From assembly GCF_001040705.1 (NCBI RefSeq), contig NZ_CVQP01000007.1:614422-678421 (forward strand): a stretch of 64,000 nucleotides of DNA, written 5' to 3'. The notes beneath the pieces are model-generated. The model was not told the origin of the DNA. It made no database searches and saw nothing but the letters and a program-made list of their open reading frames with translations. A program made the position numbers and the translations under genes. Shown one piece after another: positions 5,314 to 24,763 of this stretch (the first letter of the stretch is position 1; the number at the start of each line of letters is the position of its first letter). This stretch comes from Rhodococcus sp. RD6.2. GTDB lineage: Bacteria > Actinomycetota > Actinomycetes > Mycobacteriales > Mycobacteriaceae.

Positions 5314-6539
5314 GGCGCGGGCTCCTCGCCCTGTCCGGTTGCGCCGCCGTGTGCGCGTTCGTCGTATCCGGTGTAGGTGACGTGTCCGTCGTCGGCTCGG
5401 ACATCGGACAGTTGTCCGCGGATGACGGACATGACGGTGGCGATGGTGAGTGCACCGGTCACCGCGCCGCGCGCGTCGGTGACGAGGACGCCGCCCTGGC
5501 TCGCCGCGAGCATGGTGTCGAGTGCGTCGTTGAGCGTCGACGACGGCGCCACCACGGGCAGGCGGGGGTCGAGGTAATCGGAAACCCGGTCCTTCGTCGC
5601 CACTTCGTCGAGCGACGGCCATGCCCGTGGTCGTCCGTGTGCGTCGACGACCACGATCCAGGTGGCGCCTCGCGCCCTCGCCCTGTCGATGACCTCGTTC
5701 GACGGGTCGCCGACACGGGCGGTCACGACCGCGTCGTGGTCGACGTCCTTGACCCGGGAGAGGGTCAGATGGGCCAGCGTGGCACCGGATCCGACGAACT
5801 CCTCGACGAACGGGGTCGCAGGGGTCGCGAGGATCTCCTCGGGCGTCGCGTACTGCTCGATGTGCCCGCCCTCGGACAGGATCAGGACCTTGTCGCCGAG
5901 CTTGGTCGCCTCCTCGAAGTCGTGGGTGACGATCACGACGGTCTTCGCGAGTTCCTGTTGGATGGCGATCAGGCTGTCCTGCAAGCGGACCCTGGTGATC
6001 GGGTCGACCGCGCCGAAGGGTTCGTCCATGAGGAGGACCGGTGGGTCGGCGGCCAGTGCGCGCGCGACGCCGACGCGCTGCTGCTGCCCACCGGACATGT
6101 CCTTCGGGAGTCGGTCTCGGAAGGTGTCGGCGTCCAGTCCGACGAGGTCGAGCAGGTACTCGGTGCGTTCCTCGATCCGCTTCCGGTCCCACCCGAGCAC
6201 GCGCGGCACCGCGCCGATGTTCTTCGCCACCGACCAGTGCGGGAAGAGTCCGCCCGACTGGATGACGTAGCCGATCGACTGGCGGAGCTTGTCGGGGTTC
6301 TCGTTGGTGACATCGCGGTCGCCGATGAAGATGCGGCCCGCGGTCGGCTCGATGAGGCGATTGATCATTTTCAGTGTCGTTGTCTTGCCGCATCCGGACG
6401 GGCCGACGAAGGCCACGACCTGGCCGGCCTCGATGTCGAGGTCGATCTTCCTGACGGCCGGTGTGGACTGGCCGCGGTACTGCTTGACGACAGCGTCGAG
6501 TCGGATGGAGGCGCCGGTGACGGTTCGGTTCTCGGTCAC
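5310..6539 (-). CDS. proV: Osmoprotectant ABC transporter ATPase with tandem CBS domains (ProV/OpuCA type)
   Basis: A 409-residue ATPase energising betaine-type solute uptake. Walker A is GPSGCGKTT near residue 50, the signature is MSGGQQQRVGVARAL, Walker B is VLLMDEPFGAVD, and the switch His lies in VIVTHDFEEA. After about residue 250 come two CBS-like repeats (first with TWIVVVDAHGRPRAW, second with GGVLVTDARGAVTGALT). In OpuA/OpuC systems such CBS pairs sense ionic strength or a cyclic dinucleotide. GTG start with AAGGGA upstream; overlaps both neighbours by four bases. Confidence 0.9.
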   Translation of the reverse strand: MTENRTVTGASIRLDAVVKQYRGQSTPAVRKIDLDIEAGQVVAFVGPSGCGKTTTLKMINRLIEPTAGRIFIGDRDVTNENPDKLRQSIGYVIQSGGLFPHWSVAKNIGAVPRVLGWDRKRIEERTEYLLDLVGLDADTFRDRLPKDMSGGQQQRVGVARALAADPPVLLMDEPFGAVDPITRVRLQDSLIAIQQELAKTVVIVTHDFEEATKLGDKVLILSEGGHIEQYATPEEILATPATPFVEEFVGSGATLAHLTLSRVKDVDHDAVVTARVGDPSNEVIDRARARGATWIVVVDAHGRPRAWPSLDEVATKDRVSDYLDPRLPVVAPSSTLNDALDTMLAASQGGVLVTDARGAVTGALTIATVMSVIRGQLSDVRADDGHVTYTGYDERAHGGATGQGEEPAP

Positions 6540-7180
6540 TGGAGTCCCTTCGAGACGGTGAGGCGCCCGAGGAGAACGAGCAGGGCGTCGAAGACCAGGG
6601 CGATGGCGACGATGAGAATCGTTCCGGTGAAAGCCATCTCGACGGAGTTGGTTCCACCGAGCCGGGAGAGGCCGTTGAAGATGAGCGAGCCGAGGCCGGG
6701 TCCGAGAACGTATGCGACGATCGCGGCGACGCCGACGATCATCTGGGTGGAAACCCGGATTCCGGTGAGAATGACCGGCCAGGCGATCGGCAGTGACACC
6801 GTCAGCAGGATGCGACTGCGGGACAGTCCGATTCCGCGAGCGGACTCGATGAGGGAGTCGGGTACCGACCGAAGGCCGACGATTGCATTGCCGATCACCG
6901 GCATCGCCGCGAAGAAGGCCAGCATGACGAATGACGGGACGACACCGAGCCCGAACGGGATGATCAGCAGTGCGAGCAGTGCGAGCGACGGAATGGTCAG
7001 CGCGACCCGGCTGCTGGTGAGAGTCAGTGCCGATGCGAGTGGAAGGCGATGCACGGCAACAGCGATCGCGATGGCGACCAGCGTCCCCACCAGGACAGTC
7101 TGGAAGGCCAGCGACGCATGCTGATAGGTCAGGAACGCGAGAAACTCACCCCTACCCTGAAGATAGTCCCAGAGATTCAC
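6536..7180 (-). CDS. Osmoprotectant ABC transporter permease, first gene of operon
   Basis: A 214-residue BPD-type permease with about five to six membrane helices and the coupling loop ESARGIGLSRSRILLTVSLP. It opens the operon permease-ATPase-permease-binding protein. The GTG start at 7180 is supported by a strong AAGGAG eight bases upstream. Its stop overlaps the ATPase start (GTGA). Operon-level regulation may involve the dyad sites further upstream at 7252-7383. Confidence 0.85.
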   Translation of the reverse strand: MNLWDYLQGRGEFLAFLTYQHASLAFQTVLVGTLVAIAIAVAVHRLPLASALTLTSSRVALTIPSLALLALLIIPFGLGVVPSFVMLAFFAAMPVIGNAIVGLRSVPDSLIESARGIGLSRSRILLTVSLPIAWPVILTGIRVSTQMIVGVAAIVAYVLGPGLGSLIFNGLSRLGGTNSVEMAFTGTILIVAIALVFDALLVLLGRLTVSKGLQ

Positions 7181-8726: not shown

Positions 8727-10016
8727 CTACAGCGCGGCGAGCTTGCGGAGTCCGGCGGGGTAGGTGCGCAGTCCGACGAAGAGGACGGCGATGGCGAGCA
8801 CGTAGGCGAGCGGAACCCATTGCAGGACACCGAGCAGACCCAGTCGATCGGACAGGAGTCCGACGACGAGGGGCCCCAGGGCCATGCCGAGGATGTTGTT
8901 CACGAGGGTTCCGACGCCGAAGGCCGAGGCCCGGATCGAGGGATGCGTCAGGCTCGCGACGAGTGCGGTGGTCGCGCCGGAGGATCCGGCGCAGAAGAAT
9001 GCTCCGATTCCGATGAGGATCATCTGTGCGGAGCCGCCTGCCACACCGAATCCGACGGTGAGGGTCACGAGGGCGATTGCGGCGGTCACGACTGCGACGG
9101 TCCACTTGCGTTCGGGGCGGTGTCGGCTCACGCGGTCGGCGATGATGCCGCACGACACGATGCCGACACCCATCAGGAGCACGAACACCGACGCGGTCAG
9201 GCCGGCCGCCGAGGTGTCCATACCGTGGTAGCGGTTGAAGTAGCTGGGCAGCCAGGCGAGCAGCACACCGGACACGAAGAGTTGAAGCGCGGCACCGACG
9301 TACGCGCACACGAGCGGTGTGTTGGTGAACAGGCTCGACAGCGGGGCGCGGGTGCCGGTCGTCGTGGTGGCTGCCTGCTCGGGTGTGTGGCGCTCGAGCC
9401 TGGACGGGGTGGCGACCATCCGGAACGCGGCGACGAGGAGGAGTCCGACGACCGCCATCATCAGGAATGCTGCACGCCACCCGTATCGATCGGCGAGCAC
9501 GCCGCCGAGGGCGACGCCGAGTACCGATCCGAAGAAGGTCGACGCCTGAAAGGTTCCGCTGAGTGTCGCGTGCAGTCGGGGAGCGAACACGCTCAACATG
9601 ACCGCCATGCCGACACTGGCGTAGGCAGCCTCTCCGAAGCCGAGCAGGAAGCGTGCCCCGAGCAGCTGGCCGTAGTTGGCCGCGGCGGCGCACAGGACCG
9701 TCGCGGCACTCCACAGGACGGCCATCGCCACGATGCTGCGGACCCGTCCCCAGCGATCGGCGAGGAGCGACAGCGGGAGGGCGAGGACTCCGACCATCAG
9801 GGCGACGACGCTGGTGAGCGAGGCCAGCTGGGTGTCCGACAGGTTCCACTCGGCCTTGAGGAGCGGGAAGACGGCGCTGAGCACCTGCCGGGACATGTAG
9901 TCCGACATCATCAGTCCGCAGATCAGGGCGAACACCACCCAGGGGAATGCCCGTGACCCGGCGCTCGCCCGTTCGGGCGTGGTGACGGTGGGTCGCGTCG
10001 CGGTCTGCAACTGCAT
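8727..10016 (-). CDS. MFS transporter, ACS/aromatic-acid permease type (carrier 1)
   Basis: A 429-residue major facilitator with about twelve hydrophobic segments and the loop 2-3 signature SLLADRWGRVRS. It shares YMSRQVLSAVFP and near-continuous similarity with the second carrier at 11812-13167, so the two are paralogues. The family commonly imports organic anions such as aromatic or other carboxylates by proton symport. The ATG at 10016 is preferred because AGGA lies ten bases upstream and an upstream extension would be non-hydrophobic. Its promoter (10137-10202) carries the GTCCC repeats shared with two other promoters near an araC gene. Confidence 0.85.
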   Translation of the reverse strand: MQLQTATRPTVTTPERASAGSRAFPWVVFALICGLMMSDYMSRQVLSAVFPLLKAEWNLSDTQLASLTSVVALMVGVLALPLSLLADRWGRVRSIVAMAVLWSAATVLCAAAANYGQLLGARFLLGFGEAAYASVGMAVMLSVFAPRLHATLSGTFQASTFFGSVLGVALGGVLADRYGWRAAFLMMAVVGLLLVAAFRMVATPSRLERHTPEQAATTTTGTRAPLSSLFTNTPLVCAYVGAALQLFVSGVLLAWLPSYFNRYHGMDTSAAGLTASVFVLLMGVGIVSCGIIADRVSRHRPERKWTVAVVTAAIALVTLTVGFGVAGGSAQMILIGIGAFFCAGSSGATTALVASLTHPSIRASAFGVGTLVNNILGMALGPLVVGLLSDRLGLLGVLQWVPLAYVLAIAVLFVGLRTYPAGLRKLAAL

Positions 10017-10136
10017 GTGAATGGATCCTGTCCCGAAACGAGCGAAGGTGCGCTCGGTCCGTTTCTCCGAGCGGTGTCCAGCCGTGACGAATCCGGCCGT
10101 GACGTACCGGCCGAGCGGCGGCAAAGGTGACTGCAG

Positions 10137-10202
10137 TCACGTTAGCCCGGGTTGCGTGACGTAACTTGCCCTGCCGGGACATATTTCTTGCTGTTTCGGG
10201 AC
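10137..10202 (-). promoter_or_regulatory. Predicted AraC-dependent promoter of MFS carrier 1
   Basis: Read on the minus strand: GTCCC at 10202-10198, a second GTCCC at 10180-10176 (22 bp apart start to start), then GCTAACGT beginning 30 bp after the second repeat (10146). The same spacing recurs at 13681-13746 and 16910-16973. Two direct repeats two helical turns apart are typical of AraC/XylS-family sites, and TAACGT would be the -10 hexamer. The region also serves as upstream DNA for the divergent glycosidase gene. Confidence 0.6.
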
Positions 10203-10280
10203 GTGATGTGTTCGCGGTGCCGTGCAGGATGTGGCGCGGGTTACCCTGCACAAAGTTGGACAACTGTTCAGGAGGATGTA

Positions 10281-11753
10281 GTGCGCTTGTCATTCCTTTC
10301 GTCGCTGACGGCGGCGGCAGCCGTCGCCGCGCTGACGCTCGGTACCGCGCCTGCGGCGCAGGCCGCGGATGCAACCGACGGGTGGACGCTGCCGCGGCTG
10401 ACGGTCTCGGACAGCACGATCAGTGACGTCGACGGCCGCACGGTGCTACTCCGCGGGGTGAACGTCAACCAGCTCAACGACTATGCGGACAACGGAACCG
10501 GGCTGCCGACCGTGATGCCGCTCGAACGCGCCGACTTCGCGCGGATGGCGGCGATGGGGTTCAACGTCGTCCGGCTCAACGTTGCATGGTCGGCACTCGA
10601 GCCCACGCCGGGGGCGTTCGACACGGCCTACGTGGACCGGATCCGCACCGCGGTCCGAGATGCGAAGGACCACGGCATCTACACGCTTCTCGACATGCAC
10701 CAGGACGCGTGGGGCAAATTCATCGGCACCCCGCCCGGCGTCTCCTGCCCGCCGCTGACGGAACCCGGGATCGGCTGGGACGGCGCGCCCGAGTGGGCAA
10801 CCATCACCGACGGCTGGACCACCTGCACCGCCGGCGGGGTCCGCGAGGTCTCGCCGGCTGTTGCCCGGGCGTTCCAGGCGTTCTACGACGACGAGCAGGG
10901 AGTGCAGGGCCACCTGGTGTCGACCTGGGCGAAGCTGGCCGCGGAGTTCAAGGACGAACCGGCCGTCGTCGGGTACGACCTGCTCAACGAGCCCAACCCC
11001 GGTCTGCGTGACCCGGTCACCGCCGCCGATCAGCTCGGCCGCTTCTACCAGCGCGCGATCGACGCGATCCGGCAGGCCGAGACCGGCGGATTCGAGCACC
11101 TGGTGATCGTCGAGCCGAGCGCGATCTGGTCCGGCTTCGGCTTGGACGCGATACCGCCTCGGCAGTATCTGACCGATCCGCTGATCGTGTTCTCCCCGCA
11201 CCTCTACAGCCAGTCCATCACCGTGAGCAGCGACTTCCCCAGCGTCGAGGACGGGTTCAAGATCGCTGCGAACGCGGCGGCCGTCTACGGTGCGCCGCTG
11301 TGGACGGGGGAGTGGGGTTGGTGGGGCGACGACGCGGCCGCCGACACCGAACGTTTCCTCGACTCAATGGATCGTCATCGCATCGGCGGCGCCTGGTGGT
11401 CGTGGACCCAGGCATGCGGCGACCCGCACGCCGTGCGCGACGGCAACACCTCGACCATGCAGGAGAACCTGAACCGCGTCGACTGCCCCTCCGGAACCCC
11501 GCTCGGCCCGATCGAGGACGTGGCGGCCGCGCTGTCCCGGGCGTACCCGCGGGCTGTTCCCGGCGTCCTGACGGAGTTGTCGCGAGGCGATTTCAAGGGC
11601 TCCGGGTCGGGTCTGGTGGAGGCGTGGTACCCGGGTTCGGTGCAACCCGACCTGCAGACCGTGAACCTGTCCGACGTCGTGCTGGAACAGCTGGACGGTG
11701 GCTGGCGGATGACGGCCCAGGCGCAGGGCGACTACTCGGTGGCGCAGTCCTGA
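10281..11753 (+). CDS. Secreted GH5 glycoside hydrolase, endoglycoceramidase-like
   Basis: A 490-residue secreted enzyme. A signal peptide with an AxA-type site (TAPAAQA) ends near residue 28. The TIM-barrel carries VLLRGVNVNQ, a DMHQDAWG strand, the acid/base Glu237 in LLNEPNPG and the nucleophile Glu344 in WTGEWGWW. The ending AYPRAVPG and domain order resemble Rhodococcus endoglycoceramidases and related GH5 glycosidases acting on glycolipids; the true substrate is inferred only. GTG start with GGAGGA seven bases upstream. Divergent from MFS carrier 1 and followed by a strong terminator. Confidence 0.82.
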   Translation: MRLSFLSSLTAAAAVAALTLGTAPAAQAADATDGWTLPRLTVSDSTISDVDGRTVLLRGVNVNQLNDYADNGTGLPTVMPLERADFARMAAMGFNVVRLNVAWSALEPTPGAFDTAYVDRIRTAVRDAKDHGIYTLLDMHQDAWGKFIGTPPGVSCPPLTEPGIGWDGAPEWATITDGWTTCTAGGVREVSPAVARAFQAFYDDEQGVQGHLVSTWAKLAAEFKDEPAVVGYDLLNEPNPGLRDPVTAADQLGRFYQRAIDAIRQAETGGFEHLVIVEPSAIWSGFGLDAIPPRQYLTDPLIVFSPHLYSQSITVSSDFPSVEDGFKIAANAAAVYGAPLWTGEWGWWGDDAAADTERFLDSMDRHRIGGAWWSWTQACGDPHAVRDGNTSTMQENLNRVDCPSGTPLGPIEDVAAALSRAYPRAVPGVLTELSRGDFKGSGSGLVEAWYPGSVQPDLQTVNLSDVVLEQLDGGWRMTAQAQGDYSVAQS

Positions 11754-11758
11754 ACACG

Positions 11759-11800
11759 ACCGGACCTGCTGTGGGGGTTGCCCCCCACAGCAGGTCCGGT
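11759..11800. terminator. Bidirectional terminator between convergent genes
   Basis: Perfect 19-bp inverted repeat (11759-11777 with 11782-11800) and a 4-nt loop, placed between the glycosidase stop and the stop of the convergent MFS gene. A downstream T-tract is lacking on both strands, but stem strength and position strongly suggest termination in both directions. Confidence 0.8.
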
Positions 11801-11811
11801 TCGTTGCCGAG

Positions 11812-13167
11812 CTATGCGCGCGCAGCGGCGGCGGCACTCTGCTCGGTGAGCTTCCGCAGCCCGGCGGGGTAGGCCCGCTTGCCGATGAGCAGCGCGGCGA
11901 TGGCGAGCACGTACACCAGCGGCGCCAGCTGCAGGGCGCCGAGCAGGCCCAGGTGGTCGGCGAGTACGCCGATCAGGAACGGACCGGTCGCGAGGCCGAG
12001 GATGTTGTTGGCGACGGTGAGGGATCCGAGCGCCGACGATCGGACCGACGGGTGGGTCAGGCTGGCCACCATCGCGGCGGTGGGCCCGGACGAGCCGGCC
12101 GAGAAGAACGCGCCGATGCCGAGCAGGATCAGCTGGGGCGCTCCGGTGTCCAGTGCGAATGCGCCGCCGAGCGCAGCGAGCGAGATGACGCAGAATGCGA
12201 CGGCACTGGACCACTTGGCCGCCGGGTTGTTCCGGCCGACCCGGTCGGTGATCATGCCGCACACCACCATGCCGGTTCCGATGAGGAGCACGAACACCGA
12301 GGCGATGACGCCTGCCTTGTCGGGGGCCAGGCCGTAGTACCGGTTGAAGAAGCTGGGGGTCCAGGCGAGCAGCACGGCGGCGGTGAACATCTGGAGTCCG
12401 CCGCCGAGGTACGCGCACCAGACCGCCGGGTTCGTGAACAGCGTGGACACCGGCACGCGGATTCCGGCCGCCGCGGGCCCTGCGGTGTGCGGGTCCTGCT
12501 CGGTGTTGTACTCGGCCAGGCGGCGTTCGGTGACGACGGCGCGGAACACGGCCACGAGCAGGAGGCCGAGGACGGCCATCGCCGCGAACGACCACCGCCA
12601 GCTCAGGTGCACTGCGATCACGCCACCGAGCGAGACGCCGACGACCGAGCCGAACGATCCGCCTGCCATGAAGGCACCGCTCAACGTCGAGTGCACGCGG
12701 GGGGCGAACACGCTGAGCACCAACGCGATTCCGACGCTGCCGTAGGCGGCCTCGCCGACACCGACCAGGAACCGGGCGGCAAGCATCTGTTCGTAGTTTG
12801 CCGCGATCGCGCAGAACAGTGTCGCGACGCTCCAGACCACGGCCATGAGGACGAGACTGCGTACGCGGCCCCATCGGTCGGCCAGGAGCGAGAGCGGGAA
12901 GGTGAGCAGGCCGACCATGAGGGCCACGATGCTGGTGAGTGAGGCCAGCTGCGAATCCGTCAGGGCCCAGTCGGCTTTCAGGAACGGGAACACCGCGCTG
13001 AGTACCTGGCGGGACATGTAGTCCGACAGCAGGAGTGCGAATGTGAGTCCGAACACGGCCCAGGGGTAGATGCGCCTGCGGTTCCGTGTGCTGTTCATCG
13101 TCGGTCCCGGGCTGGTGGGATCGTCGGTCCCGAGCGGCTCGGGGGTCGTGGTGGTGGTGAGTCCCAT
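11812..13167 (-). CDS. MFS transporter, ACS/aromatic-acid permease type (carrier 2)
   Basis: A 451-residue twelve-helix carrier closely related to carrier 1 along its length (shared YMSRQVLSAVFP and SLLADRWGRVRS). It differs by a Thr/Pro-rich N-terminal extension of about 40 residues before the first helix. The ATG at 13167 has an ideal GAGGAG eight bases upstream. It is 50 bp downstream of the CMD-family gene and probably cotranscribed with it from the GTCCC-type promoter at 13681-13746. Substrate unknown; likely an organic acid handled by the catabolic operon at 17-24 kb. Confidence 0.85.
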   Translation of the reverse strand: MGLTTTTTPEPLGTDDPTSPGPTMNSTRNRRRIYPWAVFGLTFALLLSDYMSRQVLSAVFPFLKADWALTDSQLASLTSIVALMVGLLTFPLSLLADRWGRVRSLVLMAVVWSVATLFCAIAANYEQMLAARFLVGVGEAAYGSVGIALVLSVFAPRVHSTLSGAFMAGGSFGSVVGVSLGGVIAVHLSWRWSFAAMAVLGLLLVAVFRAVVTERRLAEYNTEQDPHTAGPAAAGIRVPVSTLFTNPAVWCAYLGGGLQMFTAAVLLAWTPSFFNRYYGLAPDKAGVIASVFVLLIGTGMVVCGMITDRVGRNNPAAKWSSAVAFCVISLAALGGAFALDTGAPQLILLGIGAFFSAGSSGPTAAMVASLTHPSVRSSALGSLTVANNILGLATGPFLIGVLADHLGLLGALQLAPLVYVLAIAALLIGKRAYPAGLRKLTEQSAAAAARA

Positions 13168-13217
13168 TATTGCTCCTCGGGCGGGCAGGAATGTGGTGTC
13201 GGGTTGCGGAGCGACGG

Positions 13218-13610
13218 TCAGGACGCGGCGCGGCGGGACTCGAACGCGTCGAGTTCTTCCTCGAGGATGGGGACGCCCAGGTTGCAGGCGTGGATGCCGA
13301 GAACGCTCACCATCTGGAGAACCGTGAGGATCTCCTCTCGGGAGACCCCGAGTTCGAGAGCGGCCCGGATGTGCCGGCGCACTCCGGGTGCATACATGTG
13401 GGTGGCCGCGGCGTCGATGGCGATGCTGAGGAGTTCGACGAACTCGGGGGAGAACACGCCGCGCCGGATGGGTGTGGCGTTCATCGCCATGAACTGCTCG
13501 GTCCACTCGGGATCCCAGTCGGACAGGGTGTCCCACAGTGGGTTCCAGTTGCCGCTGCGACGCATCCCGTCGATGGTCGGGGTGTGCGGCGGTTCGGAGT
13601 TGGTGTTCAT
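13218..13610 (-). CDS. Carboxymuconolactone decarboxylase (CMD) family protein
   Basis: A 130-residue protein with the CMD/AhpD-like helical core: AATHMYAPGVRRHIRAALEL then GVSREEILTVLQMVSVLGIH. The CxxC pair of AhpD peroxidases is not present (the position reads THMY), so a redox role is unlikely; the fold is closer to decarboxylase-type members. The true reaction is open, as CMD proteins also appear as accessory proteins in degradation clusters. First gene of a likely two-gene operon with MFS carrier 2. Confidence 0.8.
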   Translation of the reverse strand: MNTNSEPPHTPTIDGMRRSGNWNPLWDTLSDWDPEWTEQFMAMNATPIRRGVFSPEFVELLSIAIDAAATHMYAPGVRRHIRAALELGVSREEILTVLQMVSVLGIHACNLGVPILEEELDAFESRRAAS

Positions 13611-13680
13611 GCAGCACTCGTTTCACGCGTGGGGTGAATGGGGTGACGCAGGACGCGCCCCCCGCCGAAAGTGGCGTAGA

Positions 13681-13746
13681 TCACGTTAGCGCGATCATCG
13701 GCTGCATTCTTATCCCTACGGGACGCAGTTCTGTGCATCTCGGGAC
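13681..13746 (-). promoter_or_regulatory. Predicted AraC-dependent promoter of the CMD/MFS operon
   Basis: Read on the minus strand: GTCCC at 13746-13742 and at 13724-13720 (22 bp apart), then GCTAACGTGA starting 30 bp further on (13690-13681). The decamer TCACGTTAGC and its distance to the repeats are identical to those at the MFS carrier 1 promoter. The centre of the repeats lies about 120 bp upstream of the CMD start codon. Confidence 0.6.
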
Positions 13747-13816
13747 ACTCGGTGCGCATGGAAGGGCGCCGTGTGGCAGTTTCGCAAACTGCCTCCCGCC
13801 GTCACGCCAGTGATGT

Positions 13817-13840
13817 CAACATTGATGACAACATTGATGA
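13817..13840. repeat. Tandem 12-bp direct repeat
   Basis: Two perfect adjacent copies of CAACATTGATGA, unusually A/T-rich for this genome. They lie 70-93 bp upstream of the tetR start in the CMD-tetR intergenic region. Each copy contains a near-dyad (TGTCA upstream, TGACA downstream), so it may be a regulator site or promoter of the tetR gene. The rest of this 299-bp gap holds the CMD promoter and a hairpin. Confidence 0.4.
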
Positions 13841-13850
13841 CAGCTTGCCC

Positions 13851-13890
13851 GTGAGTCCTTCTGGCCCCTGAGTGGACCAGAAGGACTCAC
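13851..13890. terminator. Perfect 14-bp hairpin just upstream of tetR
   Basis: GTGAGTCCTTCTGG (13851-13864) and its exact complement (13877-13890) enclose a 12-nt loop. The structure ends two bases before the tetR ribosome-binding site AGGAGG. It could be an operator, a terminator isolating tetR from antisense transcription, or a 5' leader structure affecting translation; sequence alone does not decide. Confidence 0.4.
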
Positions 13891-13909
13891 GACAGGAGGG
13901 ACACAACGA

Positions 13910-14593
13910 ATGGTCGACGACGGTTCACGCACGCGGTTGACGCCCGAGGTGATCGTGGACGCCGCCGTTCGGATCGCCGCACGGGGCCGCCCGGACGGGC
14001 TGACCGGACGCGCGCTCGGCGAGGAGCTCGGGGTCGACCGGTCGGCGGTGTGGCGACACTTCGCCGACAAGGACGCGCTCCTGCGCGCGGTCGGCGACCG
14101 GCTGCTGACGATGGCGCACGAGCGCGTCCCCGCCGGGCTCGGCCCGAAGGAGCGGATGGAACACCTCGCAGGCGCGGTGATCGCGGTGTTCACCGAGCAC
14201 CCCCACGTCGGCGCCGCCGTGGCCCCGCGCACCACCCGCGGCCCCGGCGAATTCGCCCTTGTCGAGATGATGCTCACCGCGCTCGACGAGCTGGGGCTCG
14301 AACCGGCGGATGTGGTCCGCTATCAGCGGATGCTGGCCGAGTCCGTGCTGTCGTACGCAGGGATGCGGGCCGGCTACGCGATCCTGCCGGACACGCTGCG
14401 CGCGGGCGATCAACGCGCCTGGGCCCACGAGTACGTGGGCGCGGACCCGGCGAGGTACCCCGCGATCGCCGCACACGCCCCCGCGCTCGCCGAGCTGAGC
14501 CCGGACCTGGTGCTCGACACCCTGATCGAGGCGTTCTGGACGGCCGTCGACGCCAAGGCCAACGCCGCGGCCACCCGCGAGCACGCTGACTGA
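13910..14593 (+). CDS. TetR/AcrR family transcriptional regulator
   Basis: A 227-residue regulator. The N-terminal helix-turn-helix reads LTGRALGEELGVDRSAVWRH then FADKDALLRAVGD (residues about 26-58), followed by an all-helical ligand-binding domain typical of the TetR C-terminal class seen in MAB_4687/Rv-type repressors. ATG at 13910 has AGGAGG nine bases upstream. It is 56 bp ahead of the NylB-like hydrolase gene on the same strand, so it probably controls that gene and itself. Ligand unknown. Confidence 0.88.
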   Translation: MVDDGSRTRLTPEVIVDAAVRIAARGRPDGLTGRALGEELGVDRSAVWRHFADKDALLRAVGDRLLTMAHERVPAGLGPKERMEHLAGAVIAVFTEHPHVGAAVAPRTTRGPGEFALVEMMLTALDELGLEPADVVRYQRMLAESVLSYAGMRAGYAILPDTLRAGDQRAWAHEYVGADPARYPAIAAHAPALAELSPDLVLDTLIEAFWTAVDAKANAAATREHAD

Positions 14594-14649
14594 CCACGCC
14601 TGCACGGTGCCACCGACCCACCATCCCCGAGATCGAGGATCAGCCACGC

Positions 14650-15870
14650 ATGACCGAGCCCAGCACCACCGCGATCGAGCCCCCCGCAGCCGAGGCCGGA
14701 GCCCCACGTAAGCGCTCTCGCCTGCGCACGGCCGCGATCGTCGTCCCGGTGGTCGCCGCGACGCTGGTGGCGGGGACCTATGCCGCCGCCGCTGTGCTCG
14801 AGATCCCGGCGCCGCCGACCCTGGTCCGACTACTGACCGAGGCACCGTCGAAGCAGGGCGAGCTGTACCCCTCGCGCGCGGTGGCGGCATCGCCCGATCC
14901 CACTCCGCTGCAGGCGAACCCGACTCCGCTGCCCGAGACGGTGCCGTGGAAGGGCGAGCAGATCCCGGTCGCGCAGTTCCTCGAGACCACCCACACCAAC
15001 GCCTTCCTGGTCCTCCGCGACAGCGCCCTCACCCACGAGTGGTACCGCGACGGTGTCGAGGCCACGACGCCGCTGGCGTCGTGGTCGATGGCCAAGTCGG
15101 TCGTCGCGCTGATGATCGGGCAGGCGATCGACGCGGGCACGCTCCGCGAGGACAACCGGCTCGTCGATGTCCTGCCGGAGCTCGCGACCGGCGGCGAGTA
15201 CGACTCCGTCACGGTGCGGGACCTGCTGGACATGACCGCGGGCGTCGATGTGTCCGAGAACTACAACCCGTACTGGCCGCTCACCGGCACGGCCCGGATG
15301 TACCTGACCCAGGACCTCGACGAATTCGTCGCCGACCACCGCGAGGTCACGTACACGCCTGGCAGCGAAGGCGACTACCGGAGCGTCGAGACCCAGCTCC
15401 TCGGACAGGTGCTGGCCCGGGTCGAGGGGAAGCCGCTCACCGAGCTGCTCGAGCGGAACCTGTGGGCCCCGATCGGCGCCGAGGACGGCGCTACCTGGAA
15501 TCTCGACCGGCCCGGCGGCCAGGAAAAGGCGTTCTGTTGCCTCAACGCGACCGCCCGCGACTACGCCAAGATCGGCCGGCTCGTCCTCGACGGTGGGCGC
15601 GCAGGTGACACCCAGGTCGTCCCGCCCGCATGGATCGAACGCATCAGCACCCCTGCCCCGCACCGGGTCACGAACGAGAAGTGGGGTTACTCCGCGCAGT
15701 GGTGGCACCCCACCCCCGACAGCCCGGATCTGTCCGCGCTCGGAGTCTACGGCCAGTACACCTATGTCGACCCGGCCACCGGCACCGTCATCGTCAAGCT
15801 CAGCGACCACGGCACCGAGCAGGACGAGGAGGCGACGTTCGAGGTGTTCCGGGCGATCGCGGGCCGCTAG
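14650..15870 (+). CDS. Membrane-anchored serine hydrolase, beta-lactamase/NylB-like
   Basis: A 406-residue class C beta-lactamase-fold hydrolase. An N-terminal membrane anchor lies at about residues 25-50. The nucleophile motif is Ser146-Met-Ala-Lys149, the second-motif Tyr is in GDYRSVETQ, and a KTG-equivalent strand appears as VKLSDHG. The pattern resembles 6-aminohexanoate-dimer hydrolases (NylB) and EstB-type esterases more than true beta-lactamases, so amide or ester hydrolysis outside the membrane is likely. Cotranscribed with the preceding tetR. Its TAG stop lies in CTAG, which also supplies the stop of the convergent araC gene. Confidence 0.82.
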   Translation: MTEPSTTAIEPPAAEAGAPRKRSRLRTAAIVVPVVAATLVAGTYAAAAVLEIPAPPTLVRLLTEAPSKQGELYPSRAVAASPDPTPLQANPTPLPETVPWKGEQIPVAQFLETTHTNAFLVLRDSALTHEWYRDGVEATTPLASWSMAKSVVALMIGQAIDAGTLREDNRLVDVLPELATGGEYDSVTVRDLLDMTAGVDVSENYNPYWPLTGTARMYLTQDLDEFVADHREVTYTPGSEGDYRSVETQLLGQVLARVEGKPLTELLERNLWAPIGAEDGATWNLDRPGGQEKAFCCLNATARDYAKIGRLVLDGGRAGDTQVVPPAWIERISTPAPHRVTNEKWGYSAQWWHPTPDSPDLSALGVYGQYTYVDPATGTVIVKLSDHGTEQDEEATFEVFRAIAGR

Positions 15871-16871
15871 GCCTCCGAGCGGGTGCGCCACTCCCGGGGG
15901 CTCATGCCGAAGTGCCGGCTGAACCACCGGGAGAAGCTGCTGGGCGTGGAGAACGCGAGCATTTCGGAGATCTCGGTGAGCGAGTAGCGCCGGCTGCTCA
16001 CCATGCGGTTCGCGAGTTCGGCCCGGGTCTCGTCGAGAACGGTGGTGAACGTCAACCCCGACTTGGCCAGGTGGCGGTGCACGGTGCGGCGGTCGACGCC
16101 GAGGCTGCGCGCGACCTGATCGACGGAGCAGCGTCCCGTCGGAAGGAGCAGTTCGACAAGCTCGCGGACTCGCGTGGTGGTCGTGGGTTCCTCGGGGACG
16201 GCGACGGTGTCGAGGACTTGGCGGACGTAGGACCGGAGCAGGGGGTCGGACAGCCTGTTGGGCTGGTCGAGGTCGCTGGTGTACGCGACGATTCCGGAGT
16301 ATTCGGCCTCGAACCTCAGTGGTGCCCCGAACACCCGCCGATGGGTGGTGTCGTCCGCGGGTCGGGGGTGCTCGAAGCAGACCGACACGGGATGCCAACG
16401 CTCGCCCAGTAGTTGGGCGAGCAGTTGGTAGGTCGCAGTCACTGCCAGTTCGACGGACTGGCGAACGGGCATCGGCTCACCGGTGTCGACGTGGATCCGA
16501 ATGGTCGAGAGCCCGTCGCGCTCCGACAGACGAATGTGCAGGGACTCGTTGAACATGTGCTGGTATCTGATCAGCAGGCGGACGGCGCCGCGGGCGTCGG
16601 GCTCCTCGCGCAGGCTGACGCTGAGCGGGCCAAGTGTCGAGAGGCGGCGACGGTCCGCGAGCTTGAGGGCGAAGTCCGGTCTGTCGGACACGGCGGCGGA
16701 CAGTTCGAGCAGGCGCGCGACCGAGCCCGCGGGCACCCAACGGTCCTGCAGGTCGAGGCTCGCGGGGTCGAGATCGACGCTGCGCATCAGCTGGATCGGA
16801 TCGAGTGACAGGGATCGGCTCAGGTCGATGTAGCCGGTCAGTGCGGCGTAGCGGGCGAGTGGCTTGCTCAC
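15867..16871 (-). CDS. AraC family transcriptional regulator
   Basis: A 334-residue regulator with an N-terminal 'arabinose-binding-like' domain of the OruR/VirF type (YAALTGYIDLSRSLSLDPIQ onwards) and a C-terminal double helix-turn-helix: SVDQVARSLGVDRRTVHRHL and SLTEISEMLAFSTPSSFSRW with FGMSPREWR at the end. GTG start at 16871. Divergent from qor across a 204-bp gap containing GTCCC direct repeats; the same repeats precede two other transcription units, so this protein is the best candidate for their shared activator. Extra GTCCC copies at 16876 and 16899 may serve autoregulation. Confidence 0.88.
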   Translation of the reverse strand: MSKPLARYAALTGYIDLSRSLSLDPIQLMRSVDLDPASLDLQDRWVPAGSVARLLELSAAVSDRPDFALKLADRRRLSTLGPLSVSLREEPDARGAVRLLIRYQHMFNESLHIRLSERDGLSTIRIHVDTGEPMPVRQSVELAVTATYQLLAQLLGERWHPVSVCFEHPRPADDTTHRRVFGAPLRFEAEYSGIVAYTSDLDQPNRLSDPLLRSYVRQVLDTVAVPEEPTTTTRVRELVELLLPTGRCSVDQVARSLGVDRRTVHRHLAKSGLTFTTVLDETRAELANRMVSSRRYSLTEISEMLAFSTPSSFSRWFSRHFGMSPREWRTRSEA

Positions 16872-16909
16872 GGCGGTCCCATTCTGTCGGGCCTGATCGT
16901 CCCGGCGTT

Positions 16910-16973
16910 GTCCCGAATCGGCAACAAATATGTCCCCTCAGGGTAAGTGTGATGGGCGACTCGTGGCTACTGT
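16910..16973 (+). promoter_or_regulatory. Predicted AraC-dependent promoter of the qor-ligase operon
   Basis: GTCCC at 16910-16914 and at 16932-16936 (22 bp apart), then GCTACTGT starting at 16966, 30 bp after the second repeat. The interval between the repeats resembles that of the MFS carrier 1 site (shared GTCCCGAA at one end and AAATATGTCCC at the other). The predicted start of transcription would be about 95 bp before the qor ATG. Lies between the divergent araC and qor genes. Confidence 0.62.
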
Positions 16974-17075
16974 TGTGTCATCAACATCACAACACCGGCG
17001 GGTGAAACTCCGAAATGTGTTGTGGCTCAACGGGTGGATCCCGCCCCAGAACGGTACCGATCGAGGAGAACTCAC

Positions 17076-18050
17076 ATGGCACACGCGATCCGCTTCCACG
17101 AGACCGGCGGCCCCGAGGTCCTGAAGTGGGAGTCCGTCGAGGTCGGTGACCCGGGAGCCGGTGAGGTCCGCGTCCGGCACGAAGCCGTCGGACTGAACTT
17201 CGCGGACACCTACTTCCGGACCGGCCTGTACCCGGCTCCGCTGCCCGCGGGAATGGGTGTCGAGGCCGCCGGTGTCGTCGAGGCGGTCGGCGCCGGTGTC
17301 ACCGGCTTCCGCGAAGGTGATCGCGTCACCTACACCGGTAGCCCCCTCGGTGCGTACAGCACGGAGCGTGTGATGCCGGCCGAGCACCTGATCGCCGTGC
17401 CCGACGGGATCGCACTCCAGACGGCGGCCGCAATGACCATGCGCGGCCTGACCACGTCCTACCTGCTGCGCCGGATCCATCCGCTCAGCGCAGGCGACAC
17501 GGTGTTGCTGCACGCGGCGGCGGGCGGGGTTGGACTCATCTTCACCCAGTGGGCGAAGCTCTTGGGCGTCAACGTGATCGGCACCGTCTCCTCGGACGAG
17601 AAGGCCGCCGTTGCCCGGGCGCACGGTTGCAGTGAGGTCATCGTCTACACCCGGGAGAACGTCGCAGAGCGAGTTCGTGAGATCACGGAGGGCAAGGGCG
17701 TCCCGGTCGTGTACGACAGCATCGGGGCATCGACCTTCCAGTCGTCCATCGACTCGCTGGCACGGCGTGGCCTCCTCGTCGCCTTCGGTACCGCGTCCGG
17801 GCCGATCCCGCCGATCGACGCCATGCAGCTCGCGGTGAAGGGGTCGCTGTTCGTGACCCGCCCGGCTCTTGCGGACTACATCGCCGACCCGGCCGAGCGC
17901 TCCGAACTCGCGGGAGAGCTGTTCGACCACGTCGCCGCAGGCCGGATCTCCATCGAGATCAACCAGCAGTACGCGCTCGACGATGCCGTCCGTGCCCACC
18001 GGGACCTGGAAGCCGGCCGCAGCGTCGGCTCGTCGGTCTTCACCTGCTGA
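17076..18050 (+). CDS. qor: NADPH:quinone oxidoreductase / zinc-independent MDR enzyme
   Basis: A 324-residue quinone-oxidoreductase-type MDR protein. It has the substrate-domain start AIRFHETGGPEVLKWESVEV, the NADPH-binding AAAGGVGLIFTQWAKLLG and no zinc ligands, and its length matches Qor. It may reduce an enone or quinone-like pathway intermediate. ATG at 17076 follows GAGGAG. First gene of the operon under the predicted AraC-type promoter; the dioxygenase gene follows after 35 bp. Confidence 0.88.
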   Translation: MAHAIRFHETGGPEVLKWESVEVGDPGAGEVRVRHEAVGLNFADTYFRTGLYPAPLPAGMGVEAAGVVEAVGAGVTGFREGDRVTYTGSPLGAYSTERVMPAEHLIAVPDGIALQTAAAMTMRGLTTSYLLRRIHPLSAGDTVLLHAAAGGVGLIFTQWAKLLGVNVIGTVSSDEKAAVARAHGCSEVIVYTRENVAERVREITEGKGVPVVYDSIGASTFQSSIDSLARRGLLVAFGTASGPIPPIDAMQLAVKGSLFVTRPALADYIADPAERSELAGELFDHVAAGRISIEINQQYALDDAVRAHRDLEAGRSVGSSVFTC

Positions 18051-18085: not shown

Positions 18086-18979
18086 ATGACCGCCACCGTC
18101 GACATCGACTCCGGCCGCACCCGGATCACGATGGACGCCCGCCCGCTCACCTGCAGCCTCGGTGCCGAGGTGCACGGAGTGGACCTCGCCGAGGTCAGCC
18201 GCGACGACGACCGCTTCGCCGAACTGAAGGCGCTGCTGCTCGAGCACAAGGTCCTCTTCTTCCGTGACCAGGGCATGAGCCGTGCCGAGCACGTGACGCT
18301 CGCGGAACGGTTCGGTCCGCTCGAGGACCACCCCGTCCTCGGCAGCGACCCCGAACATCCCGGCCTGGTCCGGATCTACAAGGACCTCGACAGCCCGCGC
18401 GAGGCGTTCGAGAACTCATACCACTGCGATGCGACCTGGCGGGAGAACCCTCCGATGGGATCCGTGCTGCGGTGCGTCGAGGGTCCCGAGGTCGGGGGCG
18501 ACACGATCTGGGTCAACATGGCCTTGGCCTACGAGCGGTTGCCCGAGCAGGTCAAGGAACGGATCGACGGACTGCGGGCACGTCACAGCATCGAGTCGTC
18601 CTTCGGTGCGCGGCTGCCGATGGAGAAGCGACTCGAACTCAGGGATCGCTTCCCGGACGCCGAGCATCCGGTGGTCCGTACCCACCCCGAGACCGGCGAG
18701 AAGGTCCTGTTCGTCAACAGCTTCACGACGCACCTGACGAACTTTCACACCGACGACAACATCCGGTGCGGCATCGACTACGCGCCAGGGGCTGGAGAGT
18801 TGCTGCGGTACCTGCAGAGCCAGGCGACCATCCCCGAGTACCAGGTGCGCTGGCACTGGACGCGCAACAGCGTCGCGATCTGGGACAACCGCTCGACCCA
18901 GCACTACGCCGTACAGGACTACTGGCCCGCGGTCCGAAAGATGGAGCGCGCAGGCATCGTCGGCGACCGCCCCTTCTGA
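18086..18979 (+). CDS. TauD/TfdA family Fe(II)/2-oxoglutarate dioxygenase
   Basis: A 297-residue dioxygenase. The iron ligands are His113 and Asp115 in YHCDATW and distal His273 in STQHYAVQDY; the 2-oxoglutarate-binding Arg is in the following VRKMERAGIVG segment. Family members hydroxylate carbon next to a heteroatom, releasing sulfite, phenol or similar leaving groups from sulfonates, phenoxy acids or alkyl sulfates. Which substrate applies here is unknown. Placement between qor and a BKACE gene suggests it performs the opening oxidation of the pathway. Confidence 0.88.
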   Translation: MTATVDIDSGRTRITMDARPLTCSLGAEVHGVDLAEVSRDDDRFAELKALLLEHKVLFFRDQGMSRAEHVTLAERFGPLEDHPVLGSDPEHPGLVRIYKDLDSPREAFENSYHCDATWRENPPMGSVLRCVEGPEVGGDTIWVNMALAYERLPEQVKERIDGLRARHSIESSFGARLPMEKRLELRDRFPDAEHPVVRTHPETGEKVLFVNSFTTHLTNFHTDDNIRCGIDYAPGAGELLRYLQSQATIPEYQVRWHWTRNSVAIWDNRSTQHYAVQDYWPAVRKMERAGIVGDRPF

Positions 18980-19029: not shown

Positions 19030-20085
19030 ATGCATTTCCACGACGACGCATTCTTCCCGGAGAACCAGGACAAGCTGGTCATCACCGTCGCCCCGTACGG
19101 CCCGGAGTGGGCGGTCGAGGACTTCCCCGAGGATCTGCCGCTGACAATGGACGAGCACGTCCAGCAGGCGGTGGACTGCTTCGAGGCAGGCGCGACCGTG
19201 CTGCACATCCACGTCCGCGAGGAGGACGGCAAGGGCTCCAAGCGCCTGTCGAAGTTCAACGAGCTCCTCGGCCGCCTCCGCGAGGCCGTGCCGGAGATGA
19301 TCCTGCAGGTCGGTGGCTCGATCTCGTTCGCGCCGGAAGGCGACGGCGCGGACGCGAAGTGGCTGCCGGACAACGTCCGGCACATGCTCGCCGAGCTGGA
19401 TCCGAAGCCGGACCAGGTCACCATCGCGATCAACACCAGCCAGATGAACATCATGGAGCTGATGACGCCCGGCGACATCAAGGGCACCTCCCTGGAGAAC
19501 GCCGACCTCGCTCACACCTACCGCGAGATGACCGTGCCCGCGGGTCCGGAGTGGGTCGAGGAGCACCTGCGTCGCCTGCAGGCCGCCGGTATCCAGCCGC
19601 ACTTCCAGCTGTCGTCGATCCCGCAGCTCGAAACGGTGGAGCGGCTGATCCGTCGTGGTGTTTACACCGGCCCGCTGAACCTGACCTGGGTGGCGATCGG
19701 TGGCGGCTTCGACGGCCCGAACCCGTACAACATGATGCAGTTCGTCAATCGGGTGCCGGACGGCGCCTGCCTGACCCTCGAAACCCTGATGCGCAGTGTG
19801 CTGCCGGTGAACACGATGGCCATCGCGATGGGTCTGCACCCGCGGTGCGGCAACGAGGACAACCTGTGGGCGCCGAGCGGCGAGGTCAAGATCACCTCGG
19901 CCGAGCAGGTCCGTCAGTTGGTGCGCGTGGCCAAGGAGCTCGGCCGTGAGGTGGCGACGGCGAAGGAGGCCCGCGACATCTACAAGATCGGCACCACCTA
20001 CAAGGATGCCGACGAGACCCTGGCCCAGCTCGGTTACGCGCCGAACCGTCAGCCCGGTCAGGTCGGCTTCACCCAGCACGCCTGA
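19030..20085 (+). CDS. BKACE (DUF849) beta-keto acid cleavage enzyme
   Basis: A 351-residue BKACE-family protein, related to 3-keto-5-aminohexanoate cleavage enzyme and dehydrocarnitine cleavage enzyme. The zinc-binding motif is His59-Ile-His61 in LHIHVREED; MGLHPRCGNEDNLW near residue 260 is the conserved late motif. The family transfers the acyl part of a beta-keto acid to acetyl-CoA, giving acetoacetate and a new acyl-CoA. That fits the CoA transferase genes downstream, which can handle acetoacetate. ATG at 19030 with ACAGGAG upstream. The R group of the substrate cannot be deduced. Confidence 0.88.
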   Translation: MHFHDDAFFPENQDKLVITVAPYGPEWAVEDFPEDLPLTMDEHVQQAVDCFEAGATVLHIHVREEDGKGSKRLSKFNELLGRLREAVPEMILQVGGSISFAPEGDGADAKWLPDNVRHMLAELDPKPDQVTIAINTSQMNIMELMTPGDIKGTSLENADLAHTYREMTVPAGPEWVEEHLRRLQAAGIQPHFQLSSIPQLETVERLIRRGVYTGPLNLTWVAIGGGFDGPNPYNMMQFVNRVPDGACLTLETLMRSVLPVNTMAIAMGLHPRCGNEDNLWAPSGEVKITSAEQVRQLVRVAKELGREVATAKEARDIYKIGTTYKDADETLAQLGYAPNRQPGQVGFTQHA

Positions 20086-20178: not shown

Positions 20179-20763
20179 ATGACCCGCACCGCAGACCCGA
20201 CCGTCGTGATCGTGCCCGGACTCCGGGACCACGTCGCCGATCACTGGCAGACTCTGCTCGCCGCGAAGCTCGACCGCGTCGCCACCGTTCCGCCGCTCGA
20301 ACACGACAAGCTGAGTCTGCGGGCCCGGGTCGAGGCGCTCGACGCGGTCCTGGCCGACATCGACGGACCGGTCGTCCTCGTCGCGCACAGCGCGGGCGTG
20401 ATGATCACCGTGCACTGGGCGCAGCAGGCGACCCGCCCCGTCCAGGGTGCGCTGCTCGCCACCCCCGCCGACCTGGAACTGCCTCTGCCGGAGGGATATC
20501 CGACGACCGCCGACCTCGATCGCGGCGGCTGGCTTCCGCTCCCGCGACGACGACTGCCGTTCCCGAGCATCGTCGCTGCGAGCAGCAACGACCCGCTCGC
20601 GTCGTACCGCCGCATTGCGGGCCTCGCGGAGGTGTGGGGCAGCCGACTCGTCGACCTCGGCGAGGTGGGACACTTGAATCCCGGCTCCGGATACGGGTAC
20701 TGGCCTCGAGCCGAGGAATTCGTGCGCGAGCTGACCGCGGAGACCGCGGCGGTGTCGTCGTGA
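20179..20763 (+). CDS. RBBP9/YdeN-type alpha/beta hydrolase
   Basis: A 194-residue serine hydrolase of the RBBP9/YdeN group. The N-terminal [18 protein letters not shown], nucleophile region [18 protein letters not shown], acid SSNDPLAS and final His in [14 protein letters not shown] all match that family. Members hydrolyse small esters or thioesters; here it could release or rescue a CoA or ester intermediate. ATG at 20179 with TTGGAGA upstream. Its stop overlaps the scoA GTG start by four bases, which ties it to the CoA-transferase genes. Confidence 0.82.
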
Positions 20764-21548
20764 CCCGGGTGTTCGTGTCGGCCACCGACGCCGTCGCCGA
20801 TATCCCCGACGGCGCATCACTCGCCGTCGGCGGATTCGGCCTGTGCGGCATCCCCGACGCCCTGATCGCTGCGCTCGCGGACGGCACCGCAACCGACCTC
20901 GAAGTGGTGTCGAACAACTGCGGAACCGACGGTCACGGTCTAGGACTTCTGCTGGAGAAGAAGAGGATCCGGCGTGTAACCGCATCCTATGTCGGCGAGA
21001 ACCGGGAGTTCGCGCGCCAATACCTGGACGGCGAGCTCGAAGTGGAGCTGTCGCCGCAGGGGACGCTCGCCGAGCGGCTGCGGGCGGGCGGCGCGGGCAT
21101 TCCCGCATTCTTCACGCCGGCGGGAGTCGGAACTCCGGTGTCCGAGGGCGGGTTGCCCTGGCGATACGCGTCCGACGGTTCCGTCGAGGTGGCGTCGCCG
21201 CCGAAGGAGACCCGCGAGTACAGGGGCAGGCGTTACCTGCTCGAGGAGTCGATCACCACCGACTACGCCCTGGTGCACGCGGCGATCGGGGACACCGCGG
21301 GAAATCTGGTGTTCAACCTCGCCGCACGCAACTTCAATCCACTCGCCGCGATGGCGGGCCGGGTGTGCATCGCCCAGGTCGAGACGCTGGTCGAGCCCGG
21401 AGTACTGGATCCGGGAATGGTGCACCTGCCGGGGATTTTCGTGGACCGGGTGGTCTGCACCGGACGGCAGGACAAGCAGATCGAGAAGCGCACCGTGGCG
21501 TCACGCCAAGACGCCGCCCACCGCCAGAGGGACGGAGTTCCCGCATGA
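20760..21548 (+). CDS. scoA: 3-oxoacid CoA-transferase subunit A
   Basis: A 262-residue class I CoA-transferase alpha subunit. The CoA-binding glycine motif [13 protein letters not shown] occurs near residue 25, with later signatures [20 protein letters not shown] and FVDRVVCTG. Together with subunit B it moves CoA between succinate or another acid and a 3-oxoacid such as acetoacetate, the expected co-product of the BKACE upstream. GTG start overlapping the hydrolase stop (GTGA); its own stop overlaps scoB. Confidence 0.92.
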
Positions 21549-24670: not shown

Positions 24671-24763
24671 GCAGAAAGCATATGCCTCAGCCGATTGACA
24701 TATCAAGACGATATGGGGGCATGGTGAGATGACGGCTACCGGGCGCGCACAGGATGCAGCAGA

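Follow-up and report, generated by a model that had tools for sequence, protein, structure and literature searches.

We analyzed a 64,000-nt stretch of the Rhodococcus sp. RD6.2 genome (contig NZ_CVQP01000007.1, positions 614,422 to 678,421; here called the window), in which a gene for an AraC-family regulator lies among three transcription units: the gene for MFS carrier 1, a CMD gene (carboxymuconolactone decarboxylase family) followed by that for MFS carrier 2, and an operon that begins with qor, tauD and the gene for BKACE (beta-keto acid cleavage enzyme). An initial annotation of the sequence had noted two GTCCC repeats 22 bp apart upstream of each unit, and these are present as described. 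We refer to the three sites as S1, S2 and S3, respectively. Coordinates are positions in the window, and offsets are counted from the first G of the first GTCCC. The regulator gene and the predicted promoter elements are as follows, with profile scores from the search described below.

15867 to 16871, minus strand: araC, AraC-family regulator, start GTG at 16871, with Arabinose_bd (PF12625) and HTH_18 domains
10165 to 10202, minus strand: S1, two predicted tandem half-sites; A boxes 10202-10198 and 10180-10176, B boxes ending at 10187 and 10165; profile score 38.9 bits
10139 to 10144, minus strand: predicted -10 hexamer of S1, TAACGT
10126 to 10141, minus strand: CRP/GlxR-type 16-mer of S1, CGTGACTGCAGTCACC; 8/8 core bases
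13709 to 13746, minus strand: S2, two predicted tandem half-sites; A boxes 13746-13742 and 13724-13720; profile score 50.5 bits
13683 to 13688, minus strand: predicted -10 hexamer of S2, TAACGT
13670 to 13685, minus strand: CRP/GlxR-type 16-mer of S2, CGTGATCTACGCCACT; 7/8 core bases
16910 to 16947, plus strand: S3, two predicted tandem half-sites, divergent to araC; A boxes 16910-16914 and 16932-16936; profile score 51.2 bits
16968 to 16973, plus strand: predicted -10 hexamer of S3, TACTGT
16976 to 16991, plus strand: CRP/GlxR-type 16-mer of S3, TGTCATCAACATCACA; 7/8 core bases, 5 bp further downstream than in the other two and clear of the -10
16940 to 16945, minus strand: candidate -10 of araC, TACCCT, inside half-site 2 of S3

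Read in the direction of transcription, the sites follow the pattern GTCCC-N17-GTCCC-N29-GCTA(A/C)(C/T)GT, starting at 10202 (minus strand), 13746 (minus strand) and 16910 (plus strand). Counted from the final base of the second GTCCC, the third motif starts 30 bp downstream, as initially annotated, but the N30 of the search pattern proposed there was one too long, since 29 nt lie between; the ends given for S1 and S2 likewise ran 2 bp past the hexamer, while the sites themselves stand. A TAnnnT hexamer is found exactly 58 bp after the first G in all three. The identical spacing had been thought unlikely to arise by chance. For the two repeats alone this does not hold: GTCCC-N17-GTCCC occurs 3 times in the window against 0.80 expected, at least three copies were seen in 5 of 100 shuffles, and the 5.57-Mb genome contains 23 copies (7 of a reversed control pattern). 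As the pair is near background both in the window and in the 80 loci examined below, we dropped it as evidence by itself. The complete architecture, however, is rare. Among the 23 pairs in the genome, only 4 are followed by TAnnnT at offset 58, all of them also with AA at +35, and offsets 30-99 across all 23 pairs hold just two further TAnnnT. The fourth pair with the hexamer (C8:37942; L019) is the divergent promoter of an araC paralogue, araC2.

The anatomy of the sites was worked out on araC loci from Actinomycetota (the best 80 of 395). A strict site was defined as a repeat pair with at most one mismatch plus TAnnnT at offset 58. We found 120 such sites in 76 of the 80 loci, compared to 0, 0, 1, 0 and 1 in five Markov-shuffled sets. 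The repeats are thus kept at orthologous loci, a check that had been proposed with the initial annotation, and the other four loci hold weaker or differently spaced forms. Two of these, L098 and L112, have repeats 21 bp apart (profile scores of 28.2, 34.4 and 39.0 bits, and of 28.7 and 30.8 bits, respectively), which suggests co-variation with their AraC; L073 (14.5 bits) and L074 (15.3 bits) have GCCTC/GCCAC as judged by eye. L098 and L112 both belong to Mycolicibacter, with three and two profile matches, and show the 21-bp spacing where inspected. Exact GTCCC pairs in the 80 loci peak at a distance of 22 bp (76 pairs; 1-17 at the other distances from 8 to 40), and of the 72 pairs located up to 150 bp upstream of araC, 69 have the hexamer at offset 58 and one has it at 59.

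Several columns that had not been selected for are conserved among the 120 sites: G at +10 (116), G at +32 (119), A at +35 (118) and A at +36 (115), as well as A at +14 and G at +37. Spacer columns 40-55 carry at most ∼0.3 bits. This retention of unselected box columns beside a near-random spacer argues for selection on the boxes and not for mere shared descent. In araC-side sites the 18 box positions are 88% pairwise identical and the 40-55 spacer 30%; ten of these 18 positions were selected for, so that the unselected columns are the fairer measure. The predicted half-site is (T)GTCCC-N5-G-N2-AAG, with about one helical turn between its A and B boxes and a repeat period of 22 bp; the second repeat reads GTCAC instead of GTCCC in 42 of the 120 sites. 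The AraC-type direct repeat of the initial annotation therefore stands with a longer half-site than was given there. The third shared element had been counted as part of the regulator architecture; we rejected it as a regulator site, because it is a TAnnnT at fixed distance and no other regular -10 candidate was found, and it reads as the -10 box. If transcription starts 7 nt past the hexamer, as predicted, half-site 2 ends at offset 37, or about -33, and so appears to abut the -35 region. No TTGACA-like -35 was seen in the aligned promoters.

To search whole genomes we used a sequence-only profile trained on 54 of the 120 sites, almost all of them Mycobacteriales sites; the genome of RD6.2 itself contributed none. 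At E ≤ 10 it found S3 (51.2 bits), S2 (50.5 bits), S1 (38.9 bits) and the araC2 site (17.4 bits), and no further match in this genome among the 150 of 547 first-look candidates that were scored. All four matches lie at this regulon or at the paralogous cluster; a background frequency of the architecture across the genome, which had been named as a possible objection, was not seen. The search was extended to 101 genomes (RD6.2 and 100 relatives), with AraC called at E ≤ 1e-60 and the site at E ≤ 0.01. The site was present in 17 of 18 AraC-positive genomes and in 0 of 83 others (Fisher 2e-18, a value that is too small as relatives are not independent). In the 18th AraC-positive genome, G036 (L043), TGTCGC-type repeats stand in the right place by eye. 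Among the 29 matches listed, those without araC in the 3-kb locus are S1, S2, L168 and L170. The last is a solitary MFS gene with a site in genome G003 and forms a parallel to MFS carrier 1. L168 (G027:C21:117325) is a 39-bit site with no recognized gene behind it, on another contig than araC. The co-occurrence of site and regulator agrees with the proposal of the initial annotation, and we conclude that the AraC protein very probably controls all three units.

The AraC protein (HTH_18 64.8, HTH_AraC 38 and Arabinose_bd 149.2 bits in Pfam) has the C-terminal double helix-turn-helix and a known N-terminal effector domain of the AraC/XylS family, and the tandem A/B half-sites, about two turns apart near -35, have a geometry that fits this family. 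It scores 196.5 bits against NCBIfam QhpR (NF049968), below the cut-off of 250, and our literature search found no paper on QhpR. The nearest solved structure is VirS (8rcx; 142 bits over nearly the full length). The closest named AraC among the best 80 of 395 is that of Rhodococcus triatomae (87%), and the araC2 product is 45% identical to the AraC of the window. The candidate araC -10 is in line with a motif A...TA at offset 30, which reads as a -10 on the opposite strand and is present in 12 of 13 araC-side sites and 2 of 13 others in L058-L070, and in 32 of 69 versus 6 of 51 over all sites. No good -35 for this promoter was seen by eye in the window. With its -10 under half-site 2, AraC would shut off its own gene, and self-repression is a weak suggestion at this stage.

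A second shared element, missed in the initial annotation, is a palindrome with the core GTGA-N6-TCAC, which lies directly behind the -10, near the start, in all four promoters of this genome. The core of the araC2 site is complete (8/8), and in S1, S2 and the araC2 site the palindrome overlaps the last two bases of the -10. With two registers allowed (offset 62 or 67) and at least 6 of 8 bases required, the core is present in 61 of 66 Mycobacteriales sites, 3 of 9 Pseudonocardiales sites and 1 of 45 Streptomycetales sites, the orders being assigned by hand from record titles; single control registers at offsets 80-99 gave 10/1320, 0/180 and 0/900 for the same three orders. Two of the eight core bases (GT) are favored by the -10, so the TCAC half is the fairer measure: of 124 sites, 36 have it at offset 72 and 16 at offset 77, whereas every other offset between 64 and 94 has 0-2. 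Genome-wide there are 126 copies of the core compared to 31 of the reversed pattern. The genome also encodes a Crp orthologue, with 453 bits to 3h3u and 375 bits to 4byy, which we take to be CRP and GlxR of M. tuberculosis. Core and protein together place the element with CRP/GlxR operators; cAMP-linked binding is putative. GlxR binds TGTGANNTANNTCACA (PMC4254451). The core of the four promoters matches such operators in 7-8 of 8 bases, whereas the outer bases vary. Placed over the start point, these operators would presumably act to block transcription, in contrast to GlxR, which in the accessible text of the same source mostly activates. With the terms used, we did not find a CRP consensus in PMC8026907.

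The genes behind the three sites are:

8727 to 10016, minus strand: MFS carrier 1 (MFS_1), likely start ATG at 10016
13218 to 13610, minus strand: CMD-family protein (Pfam 32.5 bits, cut-off 23)
11812 to 13128, minus strand: MFS carrier 2, downstream of CMD, approximate start
17076 to 18050, plus strand: Qor, quinone-oxidoreductase-type dehydrogenase (NF008024 over cut-off)
18086 to 18979, plus strand: TauD-family 2-oxoglutarate dioxygenase (close to 5vn6, 450 bits)
19030 to 20085, plus strand: BKACE, approximate start (Pfam 218.9 bits)
20179 to 20763, plus strand: alpha/beta (serine) hydrolase, approximate start
20760 to 21548, plus strand: ScoA, 3-oxoacid CoA-transferase subunit A (TIGR02429 over cut-off)
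21545 to 22240, plus strand: ScoB, subunit B, approximate start; assigned by its position after scoA and by conservation
22039 to 23799, plus strand: acyl-CoA ligase, given as the open frame (NF004837 over cut-off); the family match begins at residue 68 and the true start lies further in

By tblastn in the 80 loci we found a common gene order, araC / qor-tauD-BKACE-MFS2-hydrolase-scoAB-ligase-CMD, which recurs, though not always complete or unaltered, in Rhodococcus, Prescottella, Nocardia, Saccharopolyspora, Streptomyces, Kutzneria and Mycolicibacter; the Rhodococcus opacus locus L085 has all of these genes. In many loci MFS carrier 2 is on the same strand and in line with qor-tauD-BKACE, as is CMD in L073, L080, L081, L083 and Tsukamurella; in Tsukamurella CMD follows the hydrolase. 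This ties both genes to the module independently of the sites. Five loci (L077, L112, L113, L119, L134) have little or none of the module beside araC. Sorted by the nearest recognized gene within 350 bp downstream, 38 of the 120 sites precede Qor, 26 BKACE, 12 CMD, 10 MFS and 1 the ligase; a recognized gene lies further off in 27, and none was found within 1500 bp in 6. Identical boxes thus stand before different genes (Qor, BKACE, CMD, MFS). The paralogous cluster on another contig (L054; C8:36917-43369) reads araC2 / MFS-SDR-BKACE-ligase with the same operator, its BKACE being named by similarity, and is likely a sister pathway. In a Streptomyces locus (L087, 8699-9796) the araC-side site is followed by a second TauD-family gene and the ligase, and the place of scoAB behind the hydrolase is taken by a gene for acetoacetate-CoA ligase (over cut-off). 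This exchange for a non-homologous enzyme supports acetoacetate as the BKACE product. The gene set also occurs on plasmids of Caballeronia, Azoarcus and Novosphingobium. In the proteobacterial clusters L142, L144 and L146 the profile found no site; the AraC proteins show 34% identity in L142 and L146, and none is annotated beside the L144 cluster.

Other genes of the window were seen around these units. TetR and beta-lactamase-fold (PF00144) genes lie between CMD and araC (13910-15870), neither of which found a match in the 80 araC loci by tblastn. A glycosyl hydrolase family 5 gene (10275-11753) is divergent to MFS carrier 1 and starts near S1, and a homologue stands just behind the ligase in three Prescottella/Rhodococcus loci (L066, L069, L070). 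An osmoprotectant/glycine-betaine-type ABC transporter, judged from the translations, is encoded at 3605-7180. Beside the operon are a divergent LysR gene and a gene for a YeiH-type putative sulfate exporter (23771-25825; the exporter at 24764-25825).

We consider it highly probable that AraC is a pathway-specific class II activator of the three units through the predicted binding sites. AraC would sense a pathway compound through its Arabinose_bd domain, and two monomers would bind head to tail on the two half-sites GTCCC-N5-G-N2-AAG. Because a TTGACA-like -35 is missing and half-site 2 ends at this position, AraC would bring RNA polymerase to the TAnnnT -10 by direct contact. This would switch on MFS carrier 1, CMD-MFS2 and qor-tauD-BKACE-hydrolase-scoAB-ligase jointly, and in Mycobacteriales the CRP/GlxR operator at the same promoters would add a cAMP-linked general carbon control. 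We infer AraC binding, activation, the inducer, araC self-repression and the sign of the CRP effect from sequence.

Such a switch would work like the tandem-repeat activation of the XylS/CphR/ArgR type; the switch type is well known, and the degradation pathway it controls here is uncharacterized. At the Rhodococcus cphA2A1 promoter, mutated promoter fusions identified two TGCA-N6-GGNTA repeats at -69 to -35 for CphR (PMC6205950). As here, an AraC-family activator of the CphR/XylS type uses two tandem A/B-box repeats that end at -35, with the regulator beside catabolic genes, but the boxes differ from GTCCC-N5-G-N2-AAG with its 22-bp repeat. VirS of Mycobacterium tuberculosis, the nearest solved structure, likewise lies beside its operon, mymA (PMC13234193), although this is another operon; the VirS operator sequence was not found in the accessible text of the literature searched. 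The half-sites come close to, and differ from, the ARG box (TGTCGC-N6-G-N-AA with a 5-bp gap) in having GTCCC and a period of 22. ArgR has a sensor domain of another type. The tandem ARG box of Pseudomonas ArgR, TGTCGCN6GNAA (PMC10963909), is nearly the same as our TGTCCC-N8-AA, and the TGTCGC repeats seen by eye in G036 (L043) are closer still; the period of ArgR is 21 (16-bp box plus 5 bp) compared to 22, and it governs the arginine response. In deoxyribonate catabolism, SDR, BKACE and two MFS genes occur together (PMC6365646). The accessible text of that paper describes an acetoacetate product and an AraC-family regulator in one cluster, which resembles our module in its BKACE and two MFS and also the araC2 cluster (MFS-SDR-BKACE-ligase); no TauD or Qor is among the genes named there, and the P. 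simiae regulator is GntR-like.

Several other explanations of the sites were weighed. The cluster contains or adjoins a TetR gene (at 13910) and a LysR gene (at 23771), and the product of one of these or a global regulator could bind the repeats, with AraC as a mere neighbor. However, at a threshold of E ≤ 1e-10 and half the protein length, the TetR of the window found no match in the 80 araC loci, LysR is found only in some, genomes without AraC at E ≤ 1e-60 lack sites at E ≤ 0.01 (0 of 83), and the araC paralogue has the same site in the same divergent place on another contig. We regard this explanation as very unlikely, and rejected TetR and LysR as binders on the locus matches and the co-occurrence of site and AraC. 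That the promoters are copies, alike by chance and shared descent without selection, has a negligible probability in our view: the two-repeat pattern is mildly enriched in the window and not in the 80 loci, and the near-random spacers beside conserved unselected box columns, together with the same geometry before unrelated genes, speak against it. AraC could also be a repressor that is released by its ligand, as the second half-site reaches the -35 region and as alpibectir lowers VirS binding to its operator in a reporter and induces the mymA operon (PMC13234193). The missing TTGACA-like -35 and the strict 22-bp/58-bp geometry are instead the layout of a class II activator, as for CphR, and make repression improbable. 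Slightly less improbable, though still unlikely, is that S1 is a relic, copied with MFS carrier 1 from an araC2-type cluster and answering to araC2 or to neither regulator. MFS carrier 1 shares 70% identity with the MFS of the araC2 cluster but 62% with MFS carrier 2, and no S1 orthologue was seen in the genus. Yet S1 scores 38.9 bits in the profile compared to 17.4 for the araC2 site, it retains both repeats, the -10 and an 8/8 CRP core, and a solitary MFS gene with a site is also seen in G003 (L170).

Some points weigh against AraC as the activator of all three units. Pairs with at most one mismatch are not enriched as such in the 80 loci (278, versus 384-411 in shuffled sequence), and the case therefore rests on the -10 spacing, the B boxes and the 22-bp peak of exact pairs. 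Most tests were seeded from araC loci, the whole-genome scans being free of this; the 101-genome scan used stricter filters that lose weak matches, and its genomes may share species with the loci on which the profile was trained. The preference for activation over repression comes only from geometry and family, and araC2 could act on some of the sites. At the place orthologous to S1, no site was seen in the other five genomes of the genus; the evidence for S1 is therefore its profile score and the analogous solitary MFS gene with a site in G003.

The substrate was approached through TauD and YeiH. TauD scores 236.8 bits against taurine dioxygenase (NF007104), below the cut-off of 313. Aligned with E. 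coli TauD (numbering by hand), it keeps His70 and Arg270, while Tyr73 and Asn95 are changed. The pattern fits an anionic, perhaps sulfonated substrate other than taurine and proves nothing. The exporter beside the operon belongs to PF03601, with TIGR00698 below cut-off, and in R. gordoniae (L143) and Novosphingobium (L146) a YeiH gene is collinear with the operon genes. The proximity of YeiH exporters to TauD is a weak indication that the substrate could be an organosulfonate. YeiH of more than 50% identity is found within the fetched region in 10 of 80 loci, although only 25 of 61 genomes have YeiH, with one or two copies per genome. The 70 loci without a close copy, and its position far from araC in several relatives (G004), argue against a strict link.

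It is conceivable, but in our estimation rather doubtful, that the regulon represents an undescribed, widespread organosulfonate pathway, made up of MFS uptake, TauD desulfonation, BKACE, ScoAB, YeiH and an AraC plus cAMP-CRP promoter design. TauD would then carry out an oxygenolytic desulfonation with release of sulfite, BKACE would cleave a beta-keto acid to acetoacetate and acyl-CoA, acetoacetate would be recovered by ScoAB (by acetoacetate-CoA ligase in Streptomyces) and sulfite/sulfate would be exported by YeiH. The araC2 cluster would in that case be a sister pathway for a non-sulfonated analogue. Among the papers listed in our literature searches none described this gene set, and the accessible part of PMC6449761 deals with other BKACE genes. 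NCBIfam gave no equivalog above cut-off for AraC, TauD or BKACE. The carnitine and taurine pathways and the deoxyribonate pathway of PMC6365646, as far as its text was accessible, were not adopted because their gene sets differ.

Taken together, a probable regulator, an operator code and a gene list are now fixed for a catabolic module that is conserved across Actinomycetota and also present, without this operator, in some Pseudomonadota. A promoter reporter could be used to hunt for its substrate. For the family, the sites describe an AraC subfamily that keeps a rigid promoter geometry over great distances, while the CRP operator comes or goes by order.

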